64,000 nucleotides of DNA, from positions 1-64,000 of the forward strand of contig NZ_JQKB01000022.1 in assembly GCF_000745835.1 (NCBI RefSeq), written 5' to 3'. A model generated the notes under the pieces. That model had not been told where the DNA came from and did no database searches. It saw nothing but the letters and a program-made list of their open reading frames with translations. Shown piece after piece: positions 9,818-31,261 of the stretch (positions are counted from its first letter, which is position 1; every line of letters begins with the position of its first letter). The position numbers and the translations under genes were made by a program. The DNA is from Belnapia moabensis DSM 16746. Its GTDB lineage: Bacteria; Pseudomonadota; Alphaproteobacteria; Acetobacterales; Acetobacteraceae.

Positions 9818-9831
9818 TCTTATCCTCCCCA

Positions 9832-10896: not shown

Positions 10897-11789
10897 CAGA
10901 CGCGCTCGATATTCTTGGTGCCGAATAGCCCATAGGGCTTGATCAGCAGGATGACGATGAGGGCGTAGAAGGGCGCGATGGTGACCATGTTGCCCCAGTT
11001 CAGCCAACCGGCGTCGAGATACTGCGCCCAGTTCTCCAGCACGCCGACGATCAGCCCGCCAAGCACCGCGCCGATGACGCTGTCGAGACCACCGAGGATC
11101 ACCGCAGGGAAGACCTTGATGCCATAGACCGAAAGCGCCGAGGACACGCCGTTCACCACCCCCACCACCACACCGGCGACGGCCGATACAACGGCCGAAA
11201 TCGCCCAGGACATGGCGAAGACCTTCGGCACGGAGATGCCGAGGGACTGCGCCACCTGCTGGTCGAAGGCCGTCGCCCGCATCGCCAGTCCATGCTTCGA
11301 GGCAGTGAAGAACCAAGCGAAACCCGCCATGATGAGCACGGAAATGCCGAGCGACATCAGGTAGGCCGTCTGTACCTCGAGCCCGAGCAGGTTCACCCGC
11401 TCCGTGCTGAAGATCGGCGGAAAGGGCTTGGCGAAAACGCCGAAGATCCACTTCATCAGCGCCTGGAAGAAGATGCCGAGGCCGATCGTCGCCATGATGA
11501 CGCTGATGACCGGCTCGCCGATCAATGGCCGCAGCACCACCACCTGCAGGATCACCCCGAACAACGTCATAAAGGCGAGGGTGACAAGGAAGCCGGCCCA
11601 GAAGGGCATCTGCCATTCCGTCAGCAGCCACCAGCAGACCCAGGCGCCGACCAGCAGGAATTCGCCCTGAGCGAAATTCACCACCTGGCTCGCCTTGTAG
11701 ATGAGCACGAAGCTCATCGCAACGACGCCGTATAGCGCACCGACGATGAGGCCGTTGAGCGTCAGTTGCAGCAGCAGCGTCCAGTCCAT
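10896..11789 (-). CDS. livH: LIV-type ABC transporter permease (LivH)
   Basis: A 297-aa inner-membrane permease of the LivH family. It opens MDWTLLLQLTLNGLIVGALYG and has the family motif ASQVVNFAQGEFLLVGAW. A coupling-loop-like segment, MRATAFDQQVAQSLGISVPKV, sits near the middle, and VILGGLDSVIGAVLGGLIVG near the C-terminus. It starts 4 nt after the stop of the long-chain ligase gene and overlaps livM by 1 nt. It partners LivM as the second membrane subunit of the first LIV system in the window. Confidence 0.92.
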   Translation of the reverse strand: MDWTLLLQLTLNGLIVGALYGVVAMSFVLIYKASQVVNFAQGEFLLVGAWVCWWLLTEWQMPFWAGFLVTLAFMTLFGVILQVVVLRPLIGEPVISVIMATIGLGIFFQALMKWIFGVFAKPFPPIFSTERVNLLGLEVQTAYLMSLGISVLIMAGFAWFFTASKHGLAMRATAFDQQVAQSLGISVPKVFAMSWAISAVVSAVAGVVVGVVNGVSSALSVYGIKVFPAVILGGLDSVIGAVLGGLIVGVLENWAQYLDAGWLNWGNMVTIAPFYALIVILLIKPYGLFGTKNIERV

Positions 11790-11793
11790 CGCT

Positions 11794-13695
11794 CTACTCC
11801 GCCGCCTGCGCCAGCGCCGGCGCATCCATCGAGACCACGCGCAAGGTGGTGCGGATGCGCTGCCGCGTGCCATCCTGGAAGGCGATGGTGGTGTCCACCG
11901 GAATGGCCTGCGCGCCGCCATAAAGAGCGGCGATGATGTCGGCATACTTCTCGTTGATGACGCCGCGGCGGACCTTGCGGGTGCGCGTCAATTCGTCGTC
12001 ATCCGCATCCAGCTCCTTGTAGAGGAGCACGAAGTCGCGGATGCGCTGTGGCTCCGGCAGGGTGACGTTCACCCGGGCGACCTCGCCTCGAAGCAGCTCC
12101 AGCACCTGCTCCCGGGCGGAAAGGTCCGTGTAGGTGGTGAAGGCGATGCGGTTGCGCTCGGCCCATTTGGAGACGATGGGGAAGCGGATGCAGATCATTG
12201 CCGCCAGATGCGGCCGTCCATCGCCAAGCACCACGGCCTCGGCGACATAGGGACTGAATTTCAGCTTGTTCTCGATGTACTGAGGGCTGAAGCGGTCACC
12301 GCGGCTGGTGGTCGCGATGTCCTTGATGCGATCGATGACAACCAGATGGCCCGCCTTGTCGAAATATCCGGCATCGCCGGTATGCATCCAACCGTCCCGC
12401 ACATCGCCCGGCTCGCCCTGACCGAGATAGCCGCAGAACATATTGGGGTGACGGGTGACGATCTCGCCGACGCCGTTATGGTCTGGCTGGTCGATGCGTA
12501 TCTCGACGCTCTCATCGAAAGGCACGCCGACCGTGTCAAAATTCACATCCGCCGCCCGGTGGATGGTGTAGGCGCCAAGCAGCTCCGTTTGGCCGTAGAG
12601 CTGGCGCAGTGGCACGCCCATGGCAAGGAAGAAACGGAAGGTGTCCGGCCCGAGCGCGGCGCCGCCTGTCGCCGCCGAGCGTAGGTTGCTGAAGCCGAGC
12701 CGGTCGCGTAGCGCCCGAAAGAGCAACTGGTCGGCAAGCGTCGAGCGCTGGCCCCGGTCCAGCGCAGCCAGGCCGCGTTCCATACCGAGTTCGAACATGC
12801 GGCGCTTCAGCGGTGAGGCATCCATCACCCGCGCACGCACATCGGCGGCAATCTGCTCCCAGAGGCGCGGCGCGAAGAGGACGAAAGTCGGGCCGATCTC
12901 GCGGAAATCGGCCATCATCGTCTCGGGCTCCTCGACGAAGTTCACCTTCATCCGGGCCAGCAGGCCGAAGCCGAGGACGTAGATCTGCTCCATGATCCAC
13001 GGCAGCGGCAGCACGGAAACGTACTCGTCCTCAGGCCCCTTGGGGTCGGCGCCGATATAGGAGGCGCAGTGGCGGATCAGCGCGCCGGACTGCAGCATGG
13101 CGAGCTTCGGCCGCGCGGTGGTGCCGGAGGTGGTGCAGAGGATTGCCACCTCCTCGCCACGCGTCGCCGCGACAAGCGCGGCATAGGCGCCGCCATCTGC
13201 CGCATGCGCCGCCTCGCCGCGCCGCACTAGCTCCTCGATCGGCATGAGGCGCGGATCGGCATGCTTCCGCATCCCGCGCGGGTCCATGTAGAGGATGTGG
13301 CGCAGCGCAGGCGCCCGGCCTTCGAGGTTGAGCAGCTTGTCGACCTGCTCCTCATCTTCGGCGATCACCGCTGCGGCGCGACTATGCTCGAGCAGGTAGG
13401 CGACCTCGTCATCCAGTGCATCGCGGTAGATACCGAGCGAGCGGGCGCCGATGGCATGGGTGGCGACTTCGCCCATTACCCAGTCCGGCCGATTGTCGCC
13501 GATCAGCCCGATCACATCGCCGGCGCCAAGTCCGAGTGCGCGCAGGCCGAGGGCGAAGCTCCGCGTCCGCGCCTCGACCTCCGCCCAGGTGAAGCTGCGC
13601 CAGATGCCGAAATGCTTCTCGCGCATCGCCACCTCCCGGCCCGCCACGGCGGCGTTACGGGAGAGCAGCTTCGGCAGGGTATCGGCCTCGCTCAT
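11794..13695 (-). CDS. long-chain-type acyl-CoA ligase (AMP-forming) embedded in LIV operon
   Basis: A 633-aa adenylate-forming enzyme resembling FadD15-type long-chain fatty-acid-CoA ligases. Motifs are the phosphate loop CTTSGTTARPKLAMLQ (Gly to Ala within the loop), RQLYGQTELLGAYTIH, DGWMHTGDAGYFDKAGHLVVIDR and DRFSPQYIENKLKFSPYVAEAVVLGDGRP. It sits between livG (4-nt ATGA overlap) and livH (4-nt gap), inside the transporter operon. The arrangement livG-ligase-livHM-binding protein-livF-paaK is one I recall from other proteobacteria. It implies that uptake and CoA activation are coupled (vectorial acylation), which is inference. The acyl chain is unknown. Confidence 0.85.
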   Translation of the reverse strand: MSEADTLPKLLSRNAAVAGREVAMREKHFGIWRSFTWAEVEARTRSFALGLRALGLGAGDVIGLIGDNRPDWVMGEVATHAIGARSLGIYRDALDDEVAYLLEHSRAAAVIAEDEEQVDKLLNLEGRAPALRHILYMDPRGMRKHADPRLMPIEELVRRGEAAHAADGGAYAALVAATRGEEVAILCTTSGTTARPKLAMLQSGALIRHCASYIGADPKGPEDEYVSVLPLPWIMEQIYVLGFGLLARMKVNFVEEPETMMADFREIGPTFVLFAPRLWEQIAADVRARVMDASPLKRRMFELGMERGLAALDRGQRSTLADQLLFRALRDRLGFSNLRSAATGGAALGPDTFRFFLAMGVPLRQLYGQTELLGAYTIHRAADVNFDTVGVPFDESVEIRIDQPDHNGVGEIVTRHPNMFCGYLGQGEPGDVRDGWMHTGDAGYFDKAGHLVVIDRIKDIATTSRGDRFSPQYIENKLKFSPYVAEAVVLGDGRPHLAAMICIRFPIVSKWAERNRIAFTTYTDLSAREQVLELLRGEVARVNVTLPEPQRIRDFVLLYKELDADDDELTRTRKVRRGVINEKYADIIAALYGGAQAIPVDTTIAFQDGTRQRIRTTLRVVSMDAPALAQAAE

Positions 13696-14510
13696 GGGGC
13701 GAGCGCCTCCTCCGGCTCGCTGACGACCTCATCCGCCTCGCCGAGATAGGCGCGCCTGACATGCGGATCGGCGAGCACCTCCTGCGGCGATCCCTCGGCG
13801 ATCTTCCTGCCGAAATCGAGGACCATGACGCGGTGCGAGATGTCCATCACCACGCCCATGTCGTGCTCGATCATCAACACGGTCATGCCCCATTCCTCGT
13901 TGAGGTCTAGGATGTAGCGGGCCATGTCCTCCTTCTCCTCGAGGTTCATCCCGGCCATCGGCTCGTCGAGGAGGATCAGCTTCGGACGCAGCGCAATAGC
14001 GCGGGCCAGTTCCACCCGCTTGCGCAAGCCATAGGAGAGCGTGCCGGCCGGCGCCTTCCGCACATGCTGAATCTCGAGGAAGTCGATGATCTCCTCGACC
14101 TCGCATCGGTGCGCGATCTCCTCGCGCTGCGCTCCGCCCAGCCAGTAAGGCATGCCGGTGAGGAAACCGTGCCGCATGAGGTGGTGGCGGCCGACCATGA
14201 TGTTGTCGAGCACGCTCATATGGCCGAACAACGCCAGGTTCTGGAAAGTGCGGCCGATGCCGATGGCGGCGCGCTTGCGCGTCGGCAGGCGGGTGATGTC
14301 GGCGCCGTCGAAGCGGATGCGCCCTGAGGTCGGGCGGTAGCGGCCGGAGACGCAGTTGACCATGGAGGTCTTGCCGGCACCGTTCGGGCCGATGATCGAG
14401 AAGACCTCGCCGGCTTTCACCTCGAAGGAGACCTCGGTGAGCGCGCGCACGCCGCCGAAGCGCAGCGTCACACCCTCCGCGGCGAGAATCGCCATGCCGG
14501 GCTCAGCCAT
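13692..14510 (-). CDS. livG: LIV-type ABC transporter ATP-binding protein (LivG)
   Basis: A 272-aa ATPase subunit, first gene of the 14-kb minus-strand operon. It has Walker A GPNGAGKTSMVN, the LivG-typical GIGRTFQNLALFGHMSVLDNIMVGRHHL region, signature TLSYGLRKRVELARAI, Walker B LILLDEPMAGMN and the switch HDMGVVMDISHRVMVLDFG. The start was set at MAEPGMAILAAEGVTLRFGG; upstream in-frame codons reach into the regulator promoter and past the operator, so they are unlikely to be translated. Its stop overlaps the ligase start by 4 nt. Expression should be governed by the TetR palindrome just upstream. Confidence 0.88.
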   Translation of the reverse strand: MAEPGMAILAAEGVTLRFGGVRALTEVSFEVKAGEVFSIIGPNGAGKTSMVNCVSGRYRPTSGRIRFDGADITRLPTRKRAAIGIGRTFQNLALFGHMSVLDNIMVGRHHLMRHGFLTGMPYWLGGAQREEIAHRCEVEEIIDFLEIQHVRKAPAGTLSYGLRKRVELARAIALRPKLILLDEPMAGMNLEEKEDMARYILDLNEEWGMTVLMIEHDMGVVMDISHRVMVLDFGRKIAEGSPQEVLADPHVRRAYLGEADEVVSEPEEALAP

Positions 14511-14579
14511 GATGCAGGCGATGAGGCGCAGTTGCGGCCACGATCGGTCCCTCCCCGGCGGGGTTGTATCCCCCGCTGC

Positions 14580-14601
14580 TAAACGAACATATGTTCGTTT
14601 A
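14580..14601. promoter_or_regulatory. Perfect 22-bp palindrome: probable TetR operator
   Basis: The two halves (TAAACGAACAT and its reverse complement) match at every position over 22 bp. The site lies in the 154-bp gap between livG and the divergently transcribed TetR gene, where a TetR-family dimer that controls itself and its neighbour is expected to bind. It overlaps the proposed -10 elements of both promoters. Confidence 0.82.
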
Positions 14602-14615
14602 TCGATTGACCGCAA
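14586..14615 (-). promoter_or_regulatory. Candidate promoter for the liv/ligase/ivd/mcc operon
   Basis: Reading on the minus strand, TTGCGG (14610-14615) and TATGTT (14586-14591) are separated by 18 nt and resemble -35 and -10 boxes. The -10 box lies inside the palindromic operator, so a bound repressor would block it. It is about 76 nt upstream of the livG start. A weaker plus-strand pair beginning with TTGTAT at 14564-14569 could serve the tetR gene. Confidence 0.45.
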
Positions 14616-14664
14616 GAGGTTTCGCGGCCCAGTTTGCGCCTGGGGAGGGAGTGGCGTCCACGAG

Positions 14665-15264
14665 ATGGCACGCATCACAGGGTCGAATGGCGAACGCACG
14701 GCAGCCGCTATCCGTCAGGCGGCACTGCGCCTGATCCATGAGCGGGGCTTCGCCGCGATGAACCTGCGCGAACTGGCAGCCGCGGTCGGGATCAGCCCTG
14801 CCTCGCTCTACAACCACATGTCAACCAAGCAGAGCCTGCTCTTCGACCTGATGCTGGAGCACATGACGGCGCTGCTGGAACAGACGGATGCGGTGCTGTC
14901 CGCTGCCGGTACGGAGCCGCTGGCCCGGCTCGAGGCCTTCATCGGCCACCACGTCCTCTACCATCTGGAGCGTAAGCGCGAGGTCTACATCGCCAATTTC
15001 GAATTGCGCGCGCTTGATCCGGCCAATGCGGCACGAATCATCGGCATGCGCCATGACTACGAGGCGCGGCTGATTGACCTGTTGGAGGAGGGTGCGGCTA
15101 CGGGCCTGCTGAGCCTCGGCGATGCGCGGATCAGCGCCTATGCGATGCTGGCCATGCTGACTGGAGTCTGCACCGGGTACCGGCCGGATGGGCGGCTGGG
15201 CCCCGCCGAGATCGTTGCACTTCATACGCGACTGGCGCTGGAGGGCATCCTCCGCCGAGTTTAG
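14665..15264 (+). CDS. TetR/AcrR-family transcriptional regulator of the liv/ligase/ivd/mcc operon
   Basis: A 199-aa protein with the N-terminal TetR helix-turn-helix: TAAAIRQAALRLIHERGFAA, then LRELAAAVGISPASLYNHM and STKQSLLFDLM. The rest is the ligand-binding helical domain, which probably senses an acyl-CoA or acid from the neighbouring pathway (inference). The start at MARITGSNGER was preferred because earlier in-frame codons run back through livG, the operator and its promoters. It is divergent from livG and shares the palindromic operator. Its TAG stop shares the tetranucleotide TTAG with the stop of the converging AA_synth gene. Confidence 0.87.
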   Translation: MARITGSNGERTAAAIRQAALRLIHERGFAAMNLRELAAAVGISPASLYNHMSTKQSLLFDLMLEHMTALLEQTDAVLSAAGTEPLARLEAFIGHHVLYHLERKREVYIANFELRALDPANAARIIGMRHDYEARLIDLLEEGAATGLLSLGDARISAYAMLAMLTGVCTGYRPDGRLGPAEIVALHTRLALEGILRRV

Positions 15265-15845
15265 CGCAGCCCGTCCTGGCCGACGATCTCCGTCGTGGTC
15301 AGCCCGCCGATGCGCGGCATTGGCCGCCCTCCACCGGTCAGCGCCAGGCAGAGCAGGATTTCCCGCGCCCGTGGCGCATCCGGCACCCGCGCCTCGATGG
15401 CGTCGAAATGGCTGCGGACGAAGGCGGCGTCCTTGTGGCCGAGCGGCACGTCGATCGCGGTGCCCGGCCCACCTGCCTTCTTGGCCGAAGGGATCAGCGC
15501 CGGCCCCTTGCCGAGCGCGGCTCGGACCGGCGCCCCCATCTTCGGGTGCAGCAAGGCGGCGGCATGTTCGAGTTCGCCTGCCTCCCCCACCACGGCGGCC
15601 TTGCCGAAGCTCTCCACCTGCTCGCCCGGGATGCCGAGTGCGGCGATGGCGTGCTCCGCCAGCAGCGCCCCGAGCGTCTCGCCCTGGGCGACCAGTTCGG
15701 AGAGATCATCCATGTAACGGCCGGCGAAGGGGTTCTCGATGACGGCGCAGGCGACGGCGCGGCGGATCGGCCGAGGCAGGTCGCGCCCCATCTCCCGCCG
15801 CGTCTCGTCCAGCAGAACCACGAGCTTCCGGATCACCGCCCCCAT
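15261..15845 (-). CDS. AA_synth-family protein (PF06684-like), exact function unknown
   Basis: A 194-aa soluble protein starting MGAVIRKLVVLLDETRREMG. It resembles the small 'amino acid synthesis' family, whose members are about 190 aa and have little firm biochemistry. Characteristic stretches are NPFAGRYMDDLSELVAQGETLG, ALGIPGEQVESFGKAAVVGEAGELEHAAALLHPKMG and TAIDVPLGHKDAAFVRSHFD. It is the last gene of the four-gene minus-strand operon, beginning 4 nt after the radical SAM stop. I recall this family near 6-hydroxynicotinate-reductase-like and UPF0280 genes in other alphaproteobacteria, which fits its position here. The family name should not be read as evidence for amino acid synthesis. 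Confidence 0.7.
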   Translation of the reverse strand: MGAVIRKLVVLLDETRREMGRDLPRPIRRAVACAVIENPFAGRYMDDLSELVAQGETLGALLAEHAIAALGIPGEQVESFGKAAVVGEAGELEHAAALLHPKMGAPVRAALGKGPALIPSAKKAGGPGTAIDVPLGHKDAAFVRSHFDAIEARVPDAPRAREILLCLALTGGGRPMPRIGGLTTTEIVGQDGLR

Positions 15846-15849
15846 TGTC

Positions 15850-16959
15850 TCAGGCCCTTCCCGCCAGATTGGCCAGCCGCGCGCCATGCCCGATGACGGC
15901 GCCGAGCGAGCCGAGATTGCGCCGGTCCGCCAGCGCCGCGACGGCCGCCAGCGGACGCCCTTCCTTCAACCGCGCGAAAGAATCTCCGATGGAGACCGAG
16001 AAGTGCAGCATGATGCTGGCGTCGCGGTAGCAATCGGTGGTGCAGGCTTGGCAACCATCGCGCATCACCTTGTCCGGGGTGAAGTCCCAGACCGAGGAGA
16101 GCGGCTCCTTCCAGTCCTCGCAGCGCCAGAGATCGTAATTCCAGTCCAGGTAAAAATACTTGTAGCCGGCATGGCAGATGAAGCGCTCGCCCTGGCCGGT
16201 GAGGCGGCGGCGCATATCGGCGATGGCGGCGCGCGGATTGTGCACCGGGATCACGCCACGAGCCTGCTCCACCCCGTCGAAGGCCGCCAGCAGCTCCGCC
16301 TGCGACATGTCGACCAGCTCGCTATCCTCGGAATAGACCAGGGAGGAGGAGCCGAGCGCCGCTTTCCGCGGATAGGAGAAGGTGACGGCGGCGAAGCCGA
16401 GTTCCTTCAGAAAGCGCCCGAGCGCGGCGTAGTCCTTGACCAGCCGGGTCATGGCGACGCTGGCGATTGGCGTCACGCCCTTGGCGGCAAGGCGGGTATT
16501 GGCTTCTTTGATACGGGTGCAGACGCCCCTCAGCCCACGATTCTCCTCATGCAGATGCGCATGCTCGCTGTCGATGGAGATGAAGAGCGTGGTGATGCCG
16601 GCCGCCGCCAAATCATCCACCTTGGGCGGCAGCAGCCAGCCATTGGTGACGAGGGTAGGCTGCGTGCCCTGCGCCGTCGCCTCGCGGGCCATGTCCAGGA
16701 TCTTCGGGTGCAGCAGCGGCTCGCCGCCCATGAAGGTGACGAAGCGCACATTCGCCTGCTCGCGCAGCCGGGTCAGCGCGGCCGGGAAGCGCTCCGCATC
16801 CAGCCAACTCCGATGCTTCACGAAGCCCTTGTTGTGGGCGAAGTTGCAGAAGTCACAGGTGGCGTTGCACATATTGGTGACGGAGACGTTGCAGATCGCC
16901 GGCCCCCCGCGCGGCACCAGCCGCAGCAGGTCGAATACCCCCGATGTCTTGCTCGCCAT
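15850..16959 (-). CDS. radical SAM protein with SPASM-like C-terminal cysteines
   Basis: A 369-aa radical SAM enzyme. The CxxxCxxC motif binding the catalytic 4Fe-4S cluster is at C31, C35 and C38 (MCNATCDFC), followed by the SAM-binding FVTFMGGEPLLHP. The C-terminal third has further cysteines (FICHAGYKYF, WRCEDW, DGCQACTTDCYRD), arranged like an auxiliary-cluster SPASM/twitch domain. Substrate unknown. The ATG start overlaps the stop of the upstream membrane-protein gene by 1 nt; a GTG one codon earlier is also possible. It lies in one operon with an enamidase-like amidohydrolase, an LPG-synthase-type membrane protein and an AA_synth protein. It lacks the features I remember for HpnH. Confidence 0.8.
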   Translation of the reverse strand: MASKTSGVFDLLRLVPRGGPAICNVSVTNMCNATCDFCNFAHNKGFVKHRSWLDAERFPAALTRLREQANVRFVTFMGGEPLLHPKILDMAREATAQGTQPTLVTNGWLLPPKVDDLAAAGITTLFISIDSEHAHLHEENRGLRGVCTRIKEANTRLAAKGVTPIASVAMTRLVKDYAALGRFLKELGFAAVTFSYPRKAALGSSSLVYSEDSELVDMSQAELLAAFDGVEQARGVIPVHNPRAAIADMRRRLTGQGERFICHAGYKYFYLDWNYDLWRCEDWKEPLSSVWDFTPDKVMRDGCQACTTDCYRDASIMLHFSVSIGDSFARLKEGRPLAAVAALADRRNLGSLGAVIGHGARLANLAGRA

Positions 16960-17957
16960 CACCCATCCCTCGGTTCAACGGGACGCATAGACCCGGTTTC
17001 CGCCCGCTGCCAAGCGATAAGGCCGGGGAGTGACAGGCAGACCTCCCGCGTTCGCCTTACCAGGGCCACGGCGAGGGCCGTCGCGGCCGGCACGCCGACC
17101 AGCGCGGCGGCACCGATGATCGCCCCCTCCTGCACCGCCAGCGCCCCCGGCAGCATAAAGCCGACATTTCGCAGGGCCTGGGCGAGGCTCTCGATCACCA
17201 GCGCATCCGCGAGTGTGATAGGGTGACCGAGCAGCCAGAGCGCGCCGGCGATCTCGACCGCCCCGAGCAGCCAGGACAGGGTGTGCCATAGGGTCGCGGC
17301 CGCCAGCCGCGGCCAATCCGTATGCAGTTCGAGAATCGCCGCCTGCAACCCCCGCACCCAGCTGGGATCGATGGCCGGCCAGCGCCGGGCGAGTCGCCCG
17401 AGGCCGCGCTCCAGCAGCGTCAGCGGCAGCCGGCGTTGGAACAGCACCATGGCCCCTGCCCCAGCCAGCGCGATCCCGAAGCCCGCCGCGGCGAAGCCGA
17501 GCAGCCCTGGCCCATCCCCGACGCCCAGCAGCAGCGCGACGCCGGCCAGGGTGAAGAAGAGCTGCGACACCGCCTCGAGCGTCAGGTCAACGGTCGCTGT
17601 CGCCCCCGCCATCTGGCTGGAGACCCCATGCCGCGAGAGAAGCCGCGCCGCGGCCGCCTGGCCGACCAGCGCCCCGGCCGGCACCAGCGCGTTGGCCGAT
17701 TCGCGGTACCAGCGGAGCTGCGCCATGACCAGGAAGGGCGGCCGCGCCGCGGGCGGCAGCAGCGCCCGCCAGGCGGCGGCCGTCAGCAGGATCTGCGGGA
17801 TATGCACGGCAGCCGAGATGCCGACCGCCGCCGGCAGATCGGCCAGCACCGCCCCGAGCCCCGACAATTCGCCGGCATTGAGGGCGATCACCGCCCCCAG
17901 CGCCAGTACACCGAAGACCACCCCGTTGCGGAGACCCTGGCGCCAGCCGGAAATCAA
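16959..17957 (-). CDS. LPG-synthase-type (HpnL-like) integral membrane protein
   Basis: A 332-aa polytopic inner-membrane protein with about eight hydrophobic segments and no soluble enzyme domain. The pattern (RWYRESANALVPAGALVGQAAA, a second conserved membrane loop at LRNVGFMLPGALAVQEGAIIG) resembles the transmembrane part of lysylphosphatidylglycerol synthases and HpnL-like proteins, which are thought to flip or carry lipid-linked molecules. It uses a TTG start overlapping the amidohydrolase stop by 4 nt, and its own stop overlaps the radical SAM start. No hopanoid genes are in the window, so a hopanoid role is not supported; the coupled radical SAM enzyme suggests a modified lipid or small molecule. 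Function unknown. Confidence 0.72.
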   Translation of the reverse strand: MISGWRQGLRNGVVFGVLALGAVIALNAGELSGLGAVLADLPAAVGISAAVHIPQILLTAAAWRALLPPAARPPFLVMAQLRWYRESANALVPAGALVGQAAAARLLSRHGVSSQMAGATATVDLTLEAVSQLFFTLAGVALLLGVGDGPGLLGFAAAGFGIALAGAGAMVLFQRRLPLTLLERGLGRLARRWPAIDPSWVRGLQAAILELHTDWPRLAAATLWHTLSWLLGAVEIAGALWLLGHPITLADALVIESLAQALRNVGFMLPGALAVQEGAIIGAAALVGVPAATALAVALVRRTREVCLSLPGLIAWQRAETGSMRPVEPRDG

Positions 17958-19153
17958 TGCCCGAGCGTCTCCGGGACCCGTTCGGCCGGCGGAGTGTTGC
18001 GGCTGCGCCCGCAGCGCATCGCTCCGTCGATCATGACGCCGCCAATGCCGGGGATGTCGCCGAGCTCCACGCTGTGCAGGAGGTCCCGCCCCGCCGTGTG
18101 CTGCGCCCGGTCGAGAAAGACGAGGTCGGCGGCCCGGCCGGCCTCGATCAGCCCGGCATCGAGATTGCGGATCCGCGCGGTATTGCCTGTCGCCATGGCG
18201 AAGGCCTGATCTGCCTTGATGCCGCCCAAGGAGGACAACAGCGATATCATCCGCAGGATGCCGAGCGGCTGCACTCCCGAGCCCGCCGGGCTGTCCGTGC
18301 CGAGGATCACTCGATGCAGCTGGCCGAGGTCACGCGCCGCCTGCACCGCGGCGATCGCCACCCGCTCATTGCCGTTATGGACGAGCTCGATGGCGCGGCT
18401 GCTCCGCTCGCAGAGCTCGCAGACATGCGCCTCCGGTAGGCTGGTATGGCCGCCATTGATGTGGCCGATGATGTCGGCATCCGCCTCCAGCACCGTATCC
18501 TTGTCGATCAGCCCGCTGCCTGGGATGGATGGGCCGCCGGTATGGATGGTGCTCTGGATGCCGTGCTTGCGGGCCCAGGCGACCATCTCCCGCGCCTCGT
18601 AGCCCGCCTTCACCGAGCCGAGGCCGACCTCGCCCAGCAAGGTAACGCCGGCAGCGGCGAGTTCGGCAAAATCGCTCTCCACCATCCCCTTCTCCAGCAC
18701 CGGTGCGCCGGCCAGCACCTTCACCCCGGCCGGGCGGGCGTTGAAGAAGGCGCGCTGGGCGGTGATGGCCAGCGACTTCAGCCCGACGATGTCTTTCGGC
18801 CGCCCGGGCAGATGGACCTCGCCGGCCGAGATCATGGTGGTGACGCCGCCGTGGAGGTTGCTCTCGACCCAGCCCATCTGGTTCTGCCGCGGGGTCCAAT
18901 CGCCGATCACCGGGTGGACATGGCTGTCGACCAGGCCGGGCGCGACCGCGCAGCCATGCGCGTCGATGACGGAGTCCGCCGCGCCACGCTCGGCCAGTTC
19001 CCGGGCCCGGCCCACGGCCGCGATCTTCCCGTCCTCGATCAGGATGGCATCGGCCTCGAGCACCGGCTTGGCGAGGTCGCCCGACAGCAGGAGCCCGATA
19101 TTCCGCACCAGGATGCGGCCCTTCGCTGGACCCGACGCCTGTTCCACCGCCAT
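17954..19153 (-). CDS. enamidase-like amidohydrolase
   Basis: A 399-aa metal-dependent amidohydrolase. The metal-binding HxH is in APGLVDSHVHPVIGD; later conserved parts are IQSTIHTGGPSIPG, ADIIGHINGGHTS and the Asp in LGTDSPAGSG. The overall look is that of enamidase of Eubacterium barkeri, which opens 1,4,5,6-tetrahydro-6-oxonicotinate to 2-formylglutarate. Its divergent neighbour resembles 6-hydroxynicotinate reductase, the enzyme before enamidase in that pathway, which strengthens the call. Two starts are possible (19153 or 19168); 19153 has the better-placed GGGGG ribosome binding site. First gene of the minus-strand operon, probably controlled by the MarR protein. Confidence 0.72.
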   Translation of the reverse strand: MAVEQASGPAKGRILVRNIGLLLSGDLAKPVLEADAILIEDGKIAAVGRARELAERGAADSVIDAHGCAVAPGLVDSHVHPVIGDWTPRQNQMGWVESNLHGGVTTMISAGEVHLPGRPKDIVGLKSLAITAQRAFFNARPAGVKVLAGAPVLEKGMVESDFAELAAAGVTLLGEVGLGSVKAGYEAREMVAWARKHGIQSTIHTGGPSIPGSGLIDKDTVLEADADIIGHINGGHTSLPEAHVCELCERSSRAIELVHNGNERVAIAAVQAARDLGQLHRVILGTDSPAGSGVQPLGILRMISLLSSLGGIKADQAFAMATGNTARIRNLDAGLIEAGRAADLVFLDRAQHTAGRDLLHSVELGDIPGIGGVMIDGAMRCGRSRNTPPAERVPETLGH

Positions 19154-19196
19154 GGCCTGATCCCCCATGCCCTTCCGGCACTCTAGCTCCGGTCCA

Positions 19197-19216
19197 TTCG
19201 TAAGCCTAGAAACGAA
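19197..19216. promoter_or_regulatory. Candidate MarR operator (TTCGT-N10-ACGAA)
   Basis: A 5-bp inverted repeat with a 10-bp spacer lies in the 82-bp gap between the amidohydrolase start and the MarR gene. The size (20 bp) and place are right for a MarR dimer controlling both directions, but the central bases are not symmetric and the half-sites are short. Confidence 0.42.
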
Positions 19217-19235
19217 ATGCGACGTGGAGGCGGGG

Positions 19236-19661
19236 ATGGAGGAGAGTGAGGACTACGTGCTGGAGGAGCAGATCGGCCACCTGCTACGCCGGGCCTATCA
19301 GCGCCACCTCGCCCTGTTCCAGAGCATCATGGGCGAGGATGGGCCGACCTCCATGCAATTTGCCGCCCTCCATATGCTGTGGCGGCGTGGTCCGCTCTCG
19401 CAGAACCTGCTCGGCCGGCTGCTGGCGATGGACCCGCCGACGGTGAAGGGCGTTGTCGCCCGGCTGATGGCACGTGGCCTGGTGGTGCGGGAGCGCGATC
19501 GTTCCGATGCCCGGATGCTGCTGGTGGCGCTGACGCCGGCGGCTCAAACCGCCCTGCCGGGCTGGGTCGAGAAGGCCAGGGCGGTGACCGCCGCCACCCT
19601 CGCGCCGCTGCCGCGGGATGAACAGGCGCGCGTCGGCGTCATCCTCCGCCGGATGGGATGA
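19236..19661 (+). CDS. MarR-family transcriptional regulator
   Basis: A 141-aa winged-helix protein. The start at MEESEDYVLEEQIGHLLRRAY follows GTGGAGGCGGGG, a strong ribosome binding site; an in-frame upstream extension overlaps the divergent promoter. The MarR core is visible as GPTSMQFAALHMLWRRGPLSQ, LLGRLLAMDPPTVKGVVARL and the wing LVVRERDRSDARMLLVALT. It is the first gene of the plus-strand set with the reductase and UPF0280 proteins and is divergent from the enamidase operon, so it is the likely local regulator, presumably sensing the aromatic substrate or an intermediate (inference). Confidence 0.85.
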   Translation: MEESEDYVLEEQIGHLLRRAYQRHLALFQSIMGEDGPTSMQFAALHMLWRRGPLSQNLLGRLLAMDPPTVKGVVARLMARGLVVRERDRSDARMLLVALTPAAQTALPGWVEKARAVTAATLAPLPRDEQARVGVILRRMG

Positions 19662-19725
19662 TTCTCGTTGTGGCCGGGCAGCCGGGCTGGCAAACTCGTT
19701 AGTGACACAACAATCGGCAGGCCCG

Positions 19726-21213
19726 ATGAGCACCGACCGCACCGCCCTGTTCGGCGCCCGTGAGGGCAATGAGGGCATCGTCCGCTGCGATGCCTGCCCC
19801 GTGCTGTGCCGCATCCGGCCCGGCCGCAGCGGCGCCTGCAGCCGCTACGCCAACCAGGACGGCACCCTCATCCGCACCGACCCGCTGGTGCTGATGCAGC
19901 GGACGGTCGAGGCAGGCGGCGAGACGGTGCCCTTCCTCGAAGGGTCGGAGGATTGGGCCGGCGGGCTCGCGCCGCGGGAGGAGATCTTCGTCTCCGCCAT
20001 CGGTGCCGGCACCACATACCCGGACTACAAGCCGGCGCCCTTCATCGTCGGCTCCCGCCATGCCGGCGTCGATACCGTCACCGTCGTGACCGAGGGCATC
20101 TTCAGCTATTGTGGCCTCAAGGTGAAGATCGACACCGACCGCCACCTCGGCCCGGAGACGGCGGCCGTCCGCGTCGATGGCGAGCAGATCGGCCATGTCA
20201 CCACCGCCGAATACGGCAGCCAGATGCTCAGCCTCGGAGGCGTGCGGCACCTGACCGGCGGCTCCAAGCGCGAGGGCAACGTCACCTGCGCCAGCATGCT
20301 GACGCTCTGCAGCAAGGGCGCGATCGAGGTCTCGATCGATGGCGGGGCGACGCTGGTGCTCCAGGCCGGTCAGGCGCCCATCGTCGATGGCGTGCCGGAG
20401 CGGCGTATGCGGGTGGGCTGCGGAAGTGCTGCCATCGGCATCTTCGCCCAGCAATGGCACGGGCATGTGGATGAGGTGATCGTGGTCGACGACCACATCA
20501 CCGGCGTGCTCTCCGAGCATCAGGCCGGGAAATGCCTCGACGTGCCACCCACCGGCATCCGCGTCCGCGGCCGGCGCTCGACGCCCGGCCGCTACTTCCA
20601 GGTCGCGCATCCGGGGAATGGCTGGGGCGGGACGGATATCAAGGACCCGCTCGCCGTCATAGAGAGCATCGACCCGAAGACCGCCTGGCCCGGCCTCCGC
20701 CTGCTGATGACCAGCACGACGGGCGAAGACCACCTCTATGTCGAACTAGACGAGGCGCTGCGCCCCGTCCCGGTGCCGGCACCGCCCGCTGTGCTGAAGA
20801 CCGTCGAGCGTATCGGCGAGAATTGCGAGCCTGCGATGACCTCAATACTGTTCATGGCCGGCGCCGGCGGTTCGCTGCGGGCGGGCGTCACCGAGAACCC
20901 GGTGCTGCTGACGCGGGAGGTTCAGCGCTCCCTCGTCCGCGTCACGATCGGCGGGGCACCCTGCACGCTCTGGCCGGGCGGCGGCATCACCGTCATGGCG
21001 GATGTGCTGCGGGTGCCGGACGGGGCCTTCGGCTATGTGCCGACACCGGCCCTCGTCGCGCCGATCGAGTTCACCCTCCGGGCCGACCTCTATGCCCGGC
21101 TCGGCGGGCATGTGGACCACGCCGTGCCCCTGGAGCGTTTACTGGCCGATTACGGCGAGGGAGCGCGGCGTGAGCCATGGGTCGACGGCAATCCCTGGCC
21201 GGCCGCGAACTGA
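19726..21213 (+). CDS. 6-hydroxynicotinate-reductase-like iron-sulfur protein
   Basis: A 495-aa protein that I recognise as resembling the 6-hydroxynicotinate reductase family. The N-terminus has a cysteine cluster CDACPVLC followed by GRSGACSRY, a plausible 4Fe-4S site; further cysteines occur in GIFSYCGLKVKID, GNVTCASMLTLCSKG and RMRVGCGSAA. The Eubacterium barkeri enzyme reduces 6-hydroxynicotinate to the tetrahydro-6-oxo form with ferredoxin. Here the enamidase-like gene for the next step is divergently encoded. The start at MSTDRTALFGARE is 64 nt after marR, and the 3' end overlaps UPF0280 by 37 nt. The real substrate may be another hydroxylated N-heterocycle; no nicotinate dehydrogenase is in the window. 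Confidence 0.72.
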   Translation: MSTDRTALFGAREGNEGIVRCDACPVLCRIRPGRSGACSRYANQDGTLIRTDPLVLMQRTVEAGGETVPFLEGSEDWAGGLAPREEIFVSAIGAGTTYPDYKPAPFIVGSRHAGVDTVTVVTEGIFSYCGLKVKIDTDRHLGPETAAVRVDGEQIGHVTTAEYGSQMLSLGGVRHLTGGSKREGNVTCASMLTLCSKGAIEVSIDGGATLVLQAGQAPIVDGVPERRMRVGCGSAAIGIFAQQWHGHVDEVIVVDDHITGVLSEHQAGKCLDVPPTGIRVRGRRSTPGRYFQVAHPGNGWGGTDIKDPLAVIESIDPKTAWPGLRLLMTSTTGEDHLYVELDEALRPVPVPAPPAVLKTVERIGENCEPAMTSILFMAGAGGSLRAGVTENPVLLTREVQRSLVRVTIGGAPCTLWPGGGITVMADVLRVPDGAFGYVPTPALVAPIEFTLRADLYARLGGHVDHAVPLERLLADYGEGARREPWVDGNPWPAAN

Positions 21214-22085
21214 TCACAGCCCGGCCGATGCATGCGCAGGTCGCCGCCCTCCCCGATGGTCGCCTGCATCTGCAGGAAGGCCCGATCGACCTGGTGATCG
21301 GGCTCGAGGGCCCGCGCTCGGCCGTCGCCGACGCTACCACCCGTGCCATCGCCGCCTTCGAGGGATTGCTCGCCGGGTTGGTGGCGGAGCTGCCTTTGCT
21401 GCGCACACCTATCGGCCCCGACCGCCCGGTCCCGCACGGCCCCGTCGCCCGTCGCATGGCGGAGGCGGTCTGGCCCTTCCGTGCCGGTTTCATCACCCCG
21501 ATGGCCGCCGTCGCCGGGGCCGTGGCGGAGGAGGTGCTGGCGGCCCTCGCCGAAGCGCCCGGCCTGACCGCAGCCTATGTGAATAATGGTGGCGACATCG
21601 CCCTCTTCCTCGCGCCGGGCGCCAGCCTGCGAATCGGCGTCGTCGCGCATCTGGCTCGCGTCGTGCCGGAAGCGCTGATCCGCCTTCGCGCCGAGGACCG
21701 GGTCCGTGGCATCGCCACCAGCGGCTGGCCTGGCCGCAGCTTCTCCCTTGGCATTGCCGATGCGGTGACGGTGCTGGCATGCAGCGCTGCGACCGCCGAT
21801 GCCGCGGCGACCGTCATCGCCAATGCGGTGAATGCGGACCACCCGGCCATCCGCCGTGCGCCGGCTGCCTCGCTCGATCCAGACAACGATCTCGGCGAGC
21901 GGCTGGTGACGGTTGGTGTCGGGCCGTTGCCCGCCGAGGTGGCGGAGGCCGCGCTCGATGCCGGCGAGGCGCGGGCGGAGGCCTTGCTCTCGGCCGGGCT
22001 GATCGAGGGCGCCTCGCTGGTGCTCGGCGATGCCGTGCGCATCGTCGGCGCGACAGGGCTCATACCGAAAGATATTGCTCCCTGA
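21177..22085 (+). CDS. UPF0280 family protein (ApbE-like fold)
   Basis: A 302-aa protein of the UPF0280 family, distantly related to the flavin transferase ApbE. Typical stretches are GPIDLVIGLEGPRSAVADAT, GAVAEEVLAALAEAPGLTAAYVNNGGDIALFL, RGIATSGWPGRSFSLGIADAVTVLACSAATADAAATVIANAVN and the C-terminal LLSAGLIEGASLVLGD. The ATG at 21177 lies inside the reductase gene (37-nt overlap), so the two are tightly coupled. An ApbE-like protein coupled to a reductase suggests covalent flavin attachment or another maturation step; this is inference. The 3' end overlaps the converging livF gene by 26 nt. Confidence 0.75.
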   Translation: MGRRQSLAGRELITARPMHAQVAALPDGRLHLQEGPIDLVIGLEGPRSAVADATTRAIAAFEGLLAGLVAELPLLRTPIGPDRPVPHGPVARRMAEAVWPFRAGFITPMAAVAGAVAEEVLAALAEAPGLTAAYVNNGGDIALFLAPGASLRIGVVAHLARVVPEALIRLRAEDRVRGIATSGWPGRSFSLGIADAVTVLACSAATADAAATVIANAVNADHPAIRRAPAASLDPDNDLGERLVTVGVGPLPAEVAEAALDAGEARAEALLSAGLIEGASLVLGDAVRIVGATGLIPKDIAP

Positions 22086-22761
22086 CGTCATCCGCCGCGA
22101 GCAACTGCGGCATGCTGCCGCTCCAGCGGATGCGACCTTTCTCGATGATGGTCGCCCGGTCGCTGACGAGTTGCGCGAAATGCAGGTTCTGCTCGGAAAG
22201 GAGGATGGAGAGCCCCTCCGACTTCAGCGCCCGGATCGCCTCCGCCATGCGCTCGATAACCACGGGCGCCAGACCCTCGCTCGGCTCGTCGAGCAGGATC
22301 AGCCGCGGATTGCCCATCAACGTGCGGGCGATGGTGAGCATCTGCTGCTCGCCGCCGCTCATCCGCCCGCCGGGCCGGTCCTGCATGGCACCGAGGCTGG
22401 GGAAGAGGGCGAAGAGCCGCTCCGGCGTCCAGGGCCGCAGCCCCGCGGTCGGCGGTCGACGTCCGACCTCCAGATTCTCCAGCACCGAAAGCTCGGTGAA
22501 GATTCGCCGCTCCTCCGGCACATAGCCAAGGCCAAGGCGGGCGATCTCGAAGGGCTCGCGCCCGGCGATCTCGGCGCCGGCGAAGCGCACGCGGCCGGCG
22601 GCGGGCGGGACGAGGCCCATGATCGCCTTCATCGTCGTGCTCTTGCCCGCGCCGTTGCGGCCTAGCAGCACGACCACCTCGCCGGCGCCGACATCGAGCG
22701 CAACATCGTCGAGGATATGCGCCCGCCCGTAATAGGCCGAAAGGCCCGCCACGCTGAGCAT
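22060..22761 (-). CDS. livF: second LIV-type ABC transporter ATP-binding protein (LivF)
   Basis: A 233-aa ATPase subunit with Walker A GRNGAGKSTTMKAIMG, the LivF marker YVPEERRIFTELSVLENLEVG, signature MSGGEQQMLTIARTL and Walker B LILLDEPSEGLAP. The ATG at 22761 overlaps the livG stop by 1 nt; a TTG one codon upstream is an alternative. Last gene of the second LIV operon, converging on and overlapping the UPF0280 gene by 26 nt, so there is no space for a terminator between the two units. Confidence 0.88.
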   Translation of the reverse strand: MLSVAGLSAYYGRAHILDDVALDVGAGEVVVLLGRNGAGKSTTMKAIMGLVPPAAGRVRFAGAEIAGREPFEIARLGLGYVPEERRIFTELSVLENLEVGRRPPTAGLRPWTPERLFALFPSLGAMQDRPGGRMSGGEQQMLTIARTLMGNPRLILLDEPSEGLAPVVIERMAEAIRALKSEGLSILLSEQNLHFAQLVSDRATIIEKGRIRWSGSMPQLLAADDVREQYLSV

Positions 22762-23519
22762 CAATGCGCTCCCGTCACCGCACCGGAGCCGAGATAGACT
22801 TCCCGCACTCTTGGGTCGGCCCTCACCACCGCCGGCGCGCCCTTGGCGATCAGCCGGCCGCGGTCGAGCACCAGGATACGATCGGCATGGCTGAAGACCA
22901 CATCCATGTCATGCTCGGTGAAGAGCACGGCGATGCCGCTTTCCCGCGCGATCTGCGCCGTCAGCGCCATCAGGGAGACTCGCTCCTGCGGCGCCATCCC
23001 CGCGGTCGGCTCATCCATCAGCAGCAGCTTCGGCTCGTTGGCCAGCGCGATGGCGAGCTCCACCCGCTTGAGGTCGCCATAGGCGAGGATGCCGCAGGGC
23101 CGCGCCGCCTGGTCGGCCATCCCGAGCCGCTCCAGCAGCGCCCGCGCCGGCGCCGCATCCATCCGCGCCACCGGCCGCCAGAGTCCACCGAGGCGGCGAT
23201 GGTGCGAGAGCAGCGCCATCTGGACATTCTCCAGCACCGTCATGGAGCCGAAGGTCGCGGTGATTTGGAAGGTCCGCCCGACGCCCAGCCGCCAGACCTG
23301 CCGCGGTGCCAGCCCGGTGATGTCCTGACCCAGCAGCCGCACCGCGCCGGCATCAGGCCTGAGCTGCCCGTTCAGCATGTTGAAGCAGGTGGACTTGCCA
23401 GCGCCGTTCGGCCCGATCAGCGCCAGCATCTCGCCCGGGGCCACGGAAAAGGAGACGCCCTGCACCGCACGCACGCCGCCGAAGCTCTTCTCAAGCCCCG
23501 TAACCTCAAGCGTCGCCAT
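22761..23519 (-). CDS. livG: second LIV-type ABC transporter ATP-binding protein (LivG)
   Basis: A 252-aa ATPase subunit with Walker A GPNGAGKSTCFNMLNG, the LivG-type GVGRTFQITATFGSMTVLENVQMALL segment, a C-loop in the form ILAYGDLKRVELAIAL, Walker B LLLMDEPTAGMAP and EHDMDVVFSHADRILVLDRGR. Its start overlaps the end of the fused permease gene by 14 nt and its stop overlaps livF. With the fused permease and the Tat-like binding protein it makes a complete importer. Confidence 0.9.
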   Translation of the reverse strand: MATLEVTGLEKSFGGVRAVQGVSFSVAPGEMLALIGPNGAGKSTCFNMLNGQLRPDAGAVRLLGQDITGLAPRQVWRLGVGRTFQITATFGSMTVLENVQMALLSHHRRLGGLWRPVARMDAAPARALLERLGMADQAARPCGILAYGDLKRVELAIALANEPKLLLMDEPTAGMAPQERVSLMALTAQIARESGIAVLFTEHDMDVVFSHADRILVLDRGRLIAKGAPAVVRADPRVREVYLGSGAVTGAH

Positions 23520-25353
23520 GGCGAGCCTCCCAGCGCGCCCGGGTAGCCCCGGCCAGCCCCTGCGGGAAGAACAGCACCAGCAGCACGATGACCGCGCCGA
23601 GGATGAGCCGCCAGAGATCGGTGAGCCTGACCAGTTGCTCCTGCAGCCCGGTGAAGGCGAGCGCCCCGATGATCGGGCCGGACAGCGTCTGCACCCCGCC
23701 GAGCAGCACCATCAGCAACGCATCGACGCTGCGCGGAATGCCCATATAGGTCGGGAAGACGCTGCCCTTGCCATAGGCGAACAACCCACCCGCGATACCA
23801 GCCGCCGCCGCCGCCAGGGCGAAGCCGAGCCAGCGGATGCGGAAGGCGTCGATGCCGATCGCCTCGGCGCGCAAGGCGCTGTCCCGCTGCGCCCGCAGCG
23901 CATAACCGAAGGGCGCATGCACGACGCGCCGCAGCAGCAGCGTCGCCCCAAGGCAGAGCGCCAGCGCTAGGTAATAGAAGACAAGCTTCGGCGCCGCCCA
24001 GGCATCCGGCCAGACGCCGAGGATGCCGTTGTCGCCCCCCGTCACCTCCACCCACTGGAAGGCGACCGACCAGGCGATCTGCGCGAAGGCCAGCGTCAGC
24101 ATCGCCGCATAGACGCCGGAGAGACGGACGCAGAAATAGCCGAACACCAGGCCGAAGACGCCCGCCGCCAGCGGCGCCAGGGCCAACCCGGCCAGCATCG
24201 GCGCACCGAGCCATTGCGCCGCCAGCGCCGCCCCATAGGCGCCAAGGCCGAAATAGGCCGCATGGCCGAAGCTCGCCATCCCGCCCGGCCCCATGATGAG
24301 ATGCAGGCTGGCGGCGAAGAGCACGGCGGTGGCCAGCTCCGTCAGCACGGAGATGGCGTAATCGCCGAGGAAGGGCGGCACCACGACCGCCAGGCCGAGC
24401 GCGGCGAGCGCCAGCCAGCGCAGCGCAGCGGGCGCCGGGCCGATCACCGGTTCCGCACTCCCTTGCCCGCCTCGCGCCGCCGCCTCCGGCTTGCCGAGCA
24501 GCCCATGCGGCCGCACCACCAGCACCAGCGCCATGACGAGGAAGACGAGCACCAGCGTGATCTTCGGCACGATCAGGATGCCGAAGGCATGCAGCTCCCC
24601 GATCAGCAGCGCCGCCAGCGCCGCGCCTGTCAGGCTGCCAAGCCCACCCACCACCACCACCACGAAAGCCTCGGTGATAATGGAAAGGTCCATATGCAGG
24701 TTGACGCTCTCCCGCGGCAGCTGCAGCGCCCCGCCGAGGCCTGCCAGCAGGCTGCCGAGGAAGAACACGGACGTGAACAGCATGCGCTGGTTCACGCCGA
24801 GCGCGCCGACCATCTCGCGGTCCTGCGTCGCCGCCCGCACCAGCGTGCCCCAGCGCGTGCGGCGGAAGAGCAGCACCAGCAGCCCGAGCACCACCGGCCC
24901 GACGCCGATCAGGAACAGCTCATAGAGTGGAAAGCGCAGCCCGAGGATCTCGGCGCTGCCGCGCAGTCCCGGTGCGCGTGGGCCGAGCAGGTCCTGCGCG
25001 CCCCAGATCATCTGCGTCAGCTCCTGCACGATGAGCACGACGCCAAAGGTGGCAAGCAACTGGAACAGCTCCGGCGCCCGGTAGATCCGACGCAGGAGCA
25101 GCATCTCGACCGCCAGCCCGATCAATCCGACCAGCACCGCCGCCCCAATCACTCCACCCCAGAAGCCGAGATGGCCGCGCGGCAGATGGGTGACGAGGGT
25201 GTAAGCGAGGTACGCACCCAACATGTAGAAGGAGCCATGGGCGAAATTCACCACCCGGCTGACGCCGAAGATGACCGTGAGGCCCGAGGCCACGAGGAAG
25301 AGCGAGGAAGCGCTCGCCAGGCCGCTCAGGGCCTGGAGGACCAGGTTCTCCAA
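23506..25353 (-). CDS. fused LivH-LivM permease of the second LIV system
   Basis: A 615-aa membrane protein in which both LIV permeases are one chain. Residues 1 to about 290 are LivH-like (VSRVVNFAHGSFYMLGAYLA; TQDREMVGALGVNQRMLF), and a linker around residues 290-310 is rich in Gly, Ala and Glu. The rest is LivM-like (GPGGMASFGHAAYFGLGAYG; QRDSALRAEAIGIDAFRIRW). No frameshift or internal stop is seen. It starts at a TTG 11 nt after the binding-protein stop with a weak ribosome binding site. Fusion fixes a 1:1 ratio of the two halves. The first LIV system in this window keeps them separate. Confidence 0.87.
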   Translation of the reverse strand: MENLVLQALSGLASASSLFLVASGLTVIFGVSRVVNFAHGSFYMLGAYLAYTLVTHLPRGHLGFWGGVIGAAVLVGLIGLAVEMLLLRRIYRAPELFQLLATFGVVLIVQELTQMIWGAQDLLGPRAPGLRGSAEILGLRFPLYELFLIGVGPVVLGLLVLLFRRTRWGTLVRAATQDREMVGALGVNQRMLFTSVFFLGSLLAGLGGALQLPRESVNLHMDLSIITEAFVVVVVGGLGSLTGAALAALLIGELHAFGILIVPKITLVLVFLVMALVLVVRPHGLLGKPEAAARGGQGSAEPVIGPAPAALRWLALAALGLAVVVPPFLGDYAISVLTELATAVLFAASLHLIMGPGGMASFGHAAYFGLGAYGAALAAQWLGAPMLAGLALAPLAAGVFGLVFGYFCVRLSGVYAAMLTLAFAQIAWSVAFQWVEVTGGDNGILGVWPDAWAAPKLVFYYLALALCLGATLLLRRVVHAPFGYALRAQRDSALRAEAIGIDAFRIRWLGFALAAAAAGIAGGLFAYGKGSVFPTYMGIPRSVDALLMVLLGGVQTLSGPIIGALAFTGLQEQLVRLTDLWRLILGAVIVLLVLFFPQGLAGATRARWEARHGDA

Positions 25354-25364
25354 GGCGGCCTGCG

Positions 25365-27868: not shown

Positions 27869-27874
27869 GTTCCC

Positions 27875-29077: not shown

Positions 29078-29102
29078 CGGGTCTCTCCTTTTTGTTCTCG
29101 GT

Positions 29103-31178
<2,076 letters not shown>

Positions 31179-31261
31179 GGGGCGTTCCTCGTTCTTGGTC
31201 ATGACTGGCCGCGCATCCTGTTGCCCGGCCCCTCCCCCTGTCAACGGGGACCGATAGCAGG

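Follow-up and report, generated by a model that had tools for sequence, protein, structure and literature searches.

The nicotinate cluster and its missing hydroxylase

This analysis concerns a locus at 15261-22085 in a window of 64,000 nucleotides (nt), the whole stretch of DNA analysed, which spans positions 1 to 64,000 of contig NZ_JQKB01000022.1 of Belnapia moabensis DSM 16746. At this locus, genes for the reductive breakdown of nicotinate enclose a gene pair encoding a radical S-adenosylmethionine enzyme (rSAM) and an HpnL-type membrane protein. We consider it fairly probable that the locus has two parts, namely a nicotinate cluster lacking its first step and, inside its operon, a passenger pair for hopanoid tailoring. 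All coordinates are those of the window, and genes were assigned by Pfam and NCBIfam family searches. The core of the locus comprised the following features:

15261-15887, minus strand: AA_synth / DUF1185 protein (PF06684, 9.6e-70)
15850-16962, minus strand: radical SAM enzyme, rSAM (PF04055, 1.7e-17)
16959-17957, minus strand: HpnL-type membrane protein (PF03706, 2.9e-20; TIGR03476, 217.2 bits, cut-off 195.65)
17954-19168, minus strand: amidohydrolase, assigned as enamidase (PF01979, 1.4e-16; match to 2VUN)
19167-19661, plus strand: MarR regulator between the divergent operons (PF12802, 7.3e-12; PF01047, 8.6e-11)
19722-19725, strand not applicable: deletion junction at which the nicotinate hydroxylase gene was removed (blastn versus L154)
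19726-21213, plus strand: 6-hydroxynicotinate reductase, Hnr, assigned by its relatives (open frame 19618-21213, conserved start at about 19726)
21177-22085, plus strand: UPF0280 protein with an ApbE-like fold (NF003322, 366.8 bits, cut-off 290)

Family searches confirmed all genes named in the original prediction, as well as its layout of two operons diverging at the MarR gene. The minus-strand operon is transcribed in the order amidohydrolase, HpnL, rSAM and AA_synth, and the divergent plus-strand operon in the order MarR, reductase and UPF0280. The short overlaps said to couple the amidohydrolase, HpnL and rSAM genes were also found, each junction sharing 4 nt; in other in-cluster loci, HpnL and rSAM matches were spaced by 0-209 nt. 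The 38-nt overlap between rSAM and AA_synth vanishes if AA_synth begins at Met-15 (position 15845, 4 nt past the rSAM stop), and this internal methionine is the likely start.

The amidohydrolase aligned with the solved enamidase of Eubacterium barkeri (2VUN) over residues 18-400 of 404 (E 3.2e-112). The HxH, Glu, His, His and Asp positions, which we take to be the metal ligands of the superfamily, were retained in this alignment. By family the protein is an E. barkeri-type enamidase and would be expected to catalyse the same reaction. The reductase matched no NCBIfam family and no Pfam family over its curated cut-off; the one phmmer match found among solved structures was at E 0.19, and a structure model (mean predicted local distance difference test score, pLDDT, of 77) yielded no PDB match at E 0.001. 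Relatives with 60-80% identity were present in 26 plasmid records, 17 of which are annotated as 6-hydroxynicotinate reductase, and the cysteines C21, C24, C28 and C38 were invariant in 44 aligned sequences. The protein is assigned to the 6-hydroxynicotinate reductase family through these relatives and cysteines rather than by direct comparison with E. barkeri Hnr, and its reaction is predicted from this membership.

The fermentation of nicotinate by E. barkeri, said to have been worked out by Alhapel et al. in 2006, reportedly includes the Hnr and enamidase steps. Hnr would convert 6-hydroxynicotinate to 1,4,5,6-tetrahydro-6-oxonicotinate, which the enamidase would open to 2-formylglutarate and ammonia. 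The earlier view that the two enzymes represent consecutive steps of this route agrees with the 2VUN match of the enamidase and the family of the reductase, and the rSAM/HpnL pair indeed has no place in it. The window shares both steps with E. barkeri, whereas the hydroxylase is absent.

A scan of named genomes yielded at least 593 relatives of the reductase, the best 80 of which were used for locus counts. UPF0280 lay within 2.5 kb downstream of the reductase in 79/80 loci, and a molybdenum hydroxylase lay within 5 kb upstream in 70/80 (L079, one of the other ten, is cut at a contig end). AA_synth was found in at least 54 and this enamidase in at least 21 of the 80 loci, both numbers being lower bounds because only 54 loci have at least 5 kb on each side. 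Annotated loci of Neorhizobium and Sagittula bring together the reductase, a Liv-type transporter, MarR and a ferredoxin-NADP reductase. HyuA and HyuB (hydantoinase/oxoprolinase) are also found near the reductase in these genera (L172, L173), with no amidohydrolase among the annotated genes shown, and may represent an alternative ring-opening step. In two of the 80 loci (L061 and L067), the hydroxylase match and the reductase share one stop-free open frame, possibly a fusion of consecutive enzymes or merely a long GC-rich frame. Long open frames are frequent in GC-rich DNA of this kind.

According to the available portions of PMC3511419, the same cluster occurs in Azorhizobium (A. caulinodans), Bradyrhizobium, Rhodopseudomonas and strain SG-6C, the reductase homologue of the latter being 42% identical to E. 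barkeri Hnr. As described there, the proteobacterial cluster shares with the window Hnr, the enamidase, an ABC transporter and two conserved unknown proteins, which from the cluster's content appear to be UPF0280 and AA_synth; the window differs in that the hydroxylase is deleted and the rSAM/HpnL pair is inserted. Since the genes are those of the published cluster, the nicotinate pathway is already known, and the suggestion of an undescribed pathway was not upheld.

The original prediction had further stated that no nicotinate dehydrogenase (NDH) is present and that the substrate may therefore differ. The first statement is right for the window, in which cluster NDH frames matched the reductase only, by way of one frame running into its own reductase. 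A relocated hydroxylase was sought among the 14 MoCoBD matches of the window's own genome, but the best of these were just 28-33% identical and no orthologue was found in the assembly. Among eight genomes of the genus, the hydroxylase lies beside the reductase in G002, G003, G004 and G007, the protein of G004 comprising the domains Fer2, Fer2_2, Ald_Xan_dh_C and both MoCoBD domains, and it is absent from the window, G001, G005 and B. arida (G006). Compared with L154 (from G002), the window lacks about 3.57 kb; the missing stretch begins 61 nt past MarR and ends two bases ahead of the reductase start. In blastn, the match of window positions 19100-19722 stops at L154 position 12028 and that of 19724-19898 restarts at 15603 (reverse-complement L154 coordinates). 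On these alignments, the absence of the hydroxylase is attributed to a recent lineage-specific deletion within the genus. Because the gene was lost in this way, its absence is not a sign of a different substrate family. A pathway for another nitrogen heterocycle (N-heterocycle) was rejected, as the deletion arose within the genus and close relatives of the genes left in the window make up the full cluster.

A molybdenum nicotinate hydroxylase beside Hnr, which marks the complete cluster, was not found in the window, and because this defining gene is gone the locus is regarded as a truncated descendant of the nicotinate cluster and not as a complete member. Strains with the deletion would be expected to use 6-hydroxynicotinate and not nicotinate, barring another hydroxylase. 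The closest named relative among the matches listed was B. arida (L043), with 95% identity for the reductase and 98% for rSAM.

Distribution of the rSAM/HpnL pair

Each count of rSAM-bearing genomes includes the genome of the window. rSAM was found in 19/249 genomes of the family (E 1e-20) and 4/385 of the class (E 1e-25), and a profile at E 1e-55 detected it in 30/395 genomes of the order and 1/398 of the phylum, the latter being the window's own genome. None was found in the plasmid collection at E 1e-20. The surroundings of the pair were compared in 22 loci, the window and 21 others, whose rSAM shares 73% identity or more; some of these stretches are short, and in L147 just 1 kb of contig precedes the pair. 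In 12/22 loci, which belong to Belnapia, g25 (the genus of Paracraurococcus) and g87, the pair is flanked by enamidase and AA_synth, and in the remaining 10 it lies outside the nicotinate cluster. It occurs in only two of the 80 reductase loci, 54 of which extend at least 5 kb to each side. The reductase was sought throughout four of the ten genomes with an outside copy; G118, G170 and G274 had none, and G203 had one on another contig. Because of the low count among reductase loci, the ten copies outside the cluster and the three genomes without a reductase, the pair is a module separate from the nicotinate cluster. The pair often lies apart from the reductase, and in two lineages it was linked to hpn genes. 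It is conserved, and not a chance finding in this one genome.

A function of the pair in the N-heterocycle operon, with rSAM acting on a variant substrate or an intermediate, or maturing one of the catabolic enzymes, and HpnL serving as a transporter or membrane anchor, would suit the location of the pair, which enamidase and AA_synth flank in 12 loci from three genera, the 4-nt overlaps in the window and the single MarR gene between the divergent operons. We nevertheless judge it decidedly unlikely, given that the pair was found in just two of the 80 Hnr loci, that 10/22 close homologues lie outside the cluster, that 3/4 of the outside genomes searched have no Hnr, and that rSAM is linked to hpnJ.

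rSAM was adjoined by HpnL in 19/22 loci, and in L206 and L207 an HpnL of 48-49% identity lay 5.8 kb off, past hpnJ. The rarity of rSAM in the order might suggest a chance juxtaposition, i.e. a pair without coherent function that is retained by operon polarity, but this is hardly credible, as the two genes stay adjacent across several different surroundings and the cluster-binding cysteines of rSAM are retained.

A tree of 22 rSAM proteins (16 close and 6 distant, with six later g68 loci left out) grouped the 12 cluster-borne copies with the standalone copy of G274 (support 83/79, moderate) and placed three standalone copies outside. This topology fits a single capture without proving it; the insertion, with enamidase on one side and AA_synth on the other, would date to an ancestor shared by Belnapia, Paracraurococcus and one related genus. 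In G118, the pair lies between transporters like those bounding the cluster and the catabolic genes are absent from the stretch, indicating either that these genes were lost around the pair or that the pair came first. Repeated matches, about 1.2 kb apart, to cluster-flanking DNA of relatives were also observed in this genome (L145, 1-6100), probably representing multiplied genes for substrate-binding proteins. Pfam searches with 20 proteins neighbouring the standalone copies of L144-L149 revealed no family shared near the pair; hpnJ was recognised later.

Link of the pair to hopanoid genes

rSAM carries the motif CxxxCxxC and five C-terminal cysteines (C263, C281, C304, C307 and C311), all five being invariant in 10 aligned homologues. 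Its description as SPASM-like holds for these cysteines and not at the level of families, Pfam having reported no SPASM family at E 0.01. The best NCBIfam models, all below their cut-offs, were BlsE (76.9 bits, cut-off 400) and MoaA (71.1 bits, cut-off 284.05), and the best PDB match was likewise BlsE, the cytosylglucuronate decarboxylase (2e-16, residues 28-189). Cytosylglucuronate decarboxylase is a radical SAM enzyme acting on a sugar. It is the best characterised relative and shares the radical SAM core, but the low score and the restriction of the match to the N-terminal half set rSAM apart from it. rSAM did not qualify as HpnH (34.6 bits, cut-off 225.05), nor as HpnJ, a family missing from the 25 shown out of 63; in the window's own genome, the C26 gene alone matched TIGR03471 at 1e-100. 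HpnL of the window exceeds the TIGR03476 cut-off and belongs to that family. A second HpnL (282.6 bits) lies in an hpnI-hpnJ-hpnK-hpnL run on another contig of the genome, and because the two are only 39% identical the window's HpnL is considered an extra paralogue.

Relatives of rSAM were found next to hopanoid genes in two lineages. In six of the eight rSAM-bearing g68 genomes hpnJ lies near rSAM, at about 2.1-3.7 kb in five of them, all over the HpnJ cut-off. In the sixth (L205), the contig ends in a 455-nt fragment of hpnJ located 4.8 kb from rSAM. In G432, which belongs to another family, an rSAM homologue of 46% identity is located about 0.1 kb from hpnJ within a same-strand run hpnK-hpnI-hpnJ-rSAM-hpnN, whose products all exceed their cut-offs (HpnK 355.9 bits versus 232.6, HpnI 317.6 versus 310, HpnJ 799.3 versus 577.6 and HpnN 928 versus 751.85). 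rSAM was not found in one other genome from the family of G432, which is 68% complete. The pair resembles the genes for the cyclitol ether of bacteriohopanetetrol (BHT), hpnI-J-K-L, and the transporter gene hpnN, in that its HpnL falls within TIGR03476 and relatives of its rSAM adjoin hpnJ and hpnN, and it differs from them in that rSAM is not HpnH and HpnL has diverged from the copy in the hpnI-J-K-L run.

HpnH scored over its cut-off in 17/17 rSAM genomes tested, with no rSAM-free genome of the family as a control. HpnJ did so in 31/33 genomes with rSAM, as against 20/27 genomes of the family and 3/20 of other families without rSAM, these controls having been hand-picked from genomes already listed. 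The two misses were G1159, in which the contig ends inside hpnJ, and G361, which is 81% complete.

According to the available text of PMC12583986, a survey of 2025, HpnI adds N-acetylglucosamine, HpnK deacetylates it and HpnJ then makes BHT cyclitol ether. In the same text, the function of hpnL is given as not established, the BHT-making enzyme as unidentified, and no obvious further candidates are seen near hpn clusters beyond hpnA, B, L and M. The portions of PMC12583986 and PMC5462960 at hand contain no description of an rSAM/HpnL pair. Because of the sugar-acting relative of rSAM and the BHT chemistry of HpnI, HpnK and HpnJ, we propose that the pair modifies BHT lipids, either at the head group or at the side chain. 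rSAM would most likely modify the side chain or the cyclitol/amino-sugar head group of bacteriohopanetetrol lipids, HpnL would move or present the lipid in the membrane, and both would stand outside N-heterocycle breakdown. rSAM and HpnL are most likely an undescribed hopanoid-tailoring pair within a nicotinate operon.

Several observations weigh against this role. Linkage to hpn genes was seen in 7/33 homologue genomes, from g68 and G432, and not in the window; among 11 stretches with homologues of 40-47% identity, ten contained none of hpnI, J, K, L and N, other hpn genes not having been sought. In G432, the HpnL match is partial, lies 5 kb off and is far below the cut-off (109.8 bits versus 195.65), and no HpnL was found in the stretch examined of L208. 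The co-occurrence with HpnJ gave Fisher p values of 0.02 within the family and 0.11 outside, uncorrected for kinship, and the association of rSAM with HpnH and HpnJ is weak because both are common in the family. The retention of the pair inside the nicotinate operon in three genera could also mean a shared role. A lipid or glycan module acting on another polyprenyl- or sugar-linked lipid would agree with the ten stretches without hpn neighbours, with BlsE as best PDB match and best, though far from sufficient, NCBIfam model, and with the PF03706 match, which places HpnL in the lysylphosphatidylglycerol-synthase membrane family. Such a module appears rather unlikely, since HpnL passes the TIGR03476 cut-off and rSAM is linked to hpnJ and, in G432, to a run of hpn genes.

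UPF0280, neighbouring genes and implications

The E. barkeri Hnr studied by Alhapel et al. in 2006 reportedly bears a covalently bound flavin. UPF0280 is a natural candidate flavin transferase for Hnr because the two genes are adjacent in nearly all loci. With a model of UPF0280 (pLDDT 91), Foldseek retrieved DVU1097 (2o34) first and then the flavin transferases FmnB, ApbE and Ftp, with E values between 1e-5 and 1e-3 within the top 20 matches; the Pfam ApbE match (0.0027) was below the cut-off. The modelled fold resembles that of ApbE with moderate template modelling (TM) scores. UPF0280 has an invariant S182 and D208, matched to ApbE positions by eye. It resembles ApbE, FmnB and Ftp in fold, but several features call for caution: the TM-scores to ApbE structures are about 0.3-0.5, with 10-18% identity; no histidine is invariant at the position of the ApbE base, as given in the available part of PMC12052999; and Hnr has D-H-I-T-G-V-L in place of the ApbE motif D-x-x-[S/T]-G-A-[S/T]. 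Neither the Ser-His-Asp set of ApbE nor its target motif was thus recovered in UPF0280 and Hnr. A literature search by the name UPF0280 found no paper, and the name is absent from the part of the ApbE review PMC12052999 available. On the modelled fold, UPF0280 probably attaches the covalent flavin of Hnr.

AA_synth has the solved relatives 2qtp (1.7e-76) and 3byq (5.8e-38) and is a frequent companion of the nicotinate cluster. In the available text of PMC2954203, the fold of AA_synth and the Liv-type transporters encoded nearby are the grounds for proposing a role in amino-acid metabolism, and nicotinate is not mentioned. In L080, L083, L084, L087 and others, UPF0280 is followed by two neighbouring AA_synth genes that are unequal, while the window has one; the paired genes perhaps encode a two-subunit enzyme. 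Beyond UPF0280, two further groups of genes were assigned:

22060-26582, minus strand: branched-chain-type ABC uptake transporter (second ATPase, permease and binding protein by Pfam/NCBIfam; first ATPase by sequence)
26723-31508, minus strand: two acyl-CoA dehydrogenases and an enoyl-CoA hydratase/3-hydroxyacyl-CoA dehydrogenase (Pfam)

The transporter is the probable substrate importer of the cluster, and transporter genes of similar type flank the reductase in many relatives. The beta-oxidation genes possibly provide the lower pathway. On the other side, a second branched-chain-type ABC transporter and an AMP-binding ligase flank the cluster at 8531-14699; related ABC genes flank the clusters of relatives.

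Tentatively, the proposal may be extended as follows. The pair could be a further hopanoid radical SAM step besides HpnH, HpnJ and the ring methylases, working with a dedicated HpnL on BHT cyclitol ether or its amino-sugar precursor and captured under MarR control, and UPF0280 could be an Hnr-specific flavin transferase whose target site differs from the ApbE site. For UPF0280, this suggests a testable role for a family of unknown function that lies beside 79/80 6-hydroxynicotinate reductase genes, which makes it of interest to N-heterocycle specialists. For hopanoid specialists, the interest lies in the pair: several hopanoid steps lack a gene, among them the formation of bacteriohopanetetrol from ribosylhopane, the introduction of additional hydroxyls in pentols and hexols and the cyclitol-ether isomers of unknown structure, and the pair provides one candidate enzyme together with a natural partner, HpnL. 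The locus is a known nicotinate cluster that was trimmed by deletion and carries a conserved pair probably serving hopanoid metabolism. If this is true, control of the pair by the operon's MarR regulator would link the decoration of membrane lipids to the use of N-heterocycles.

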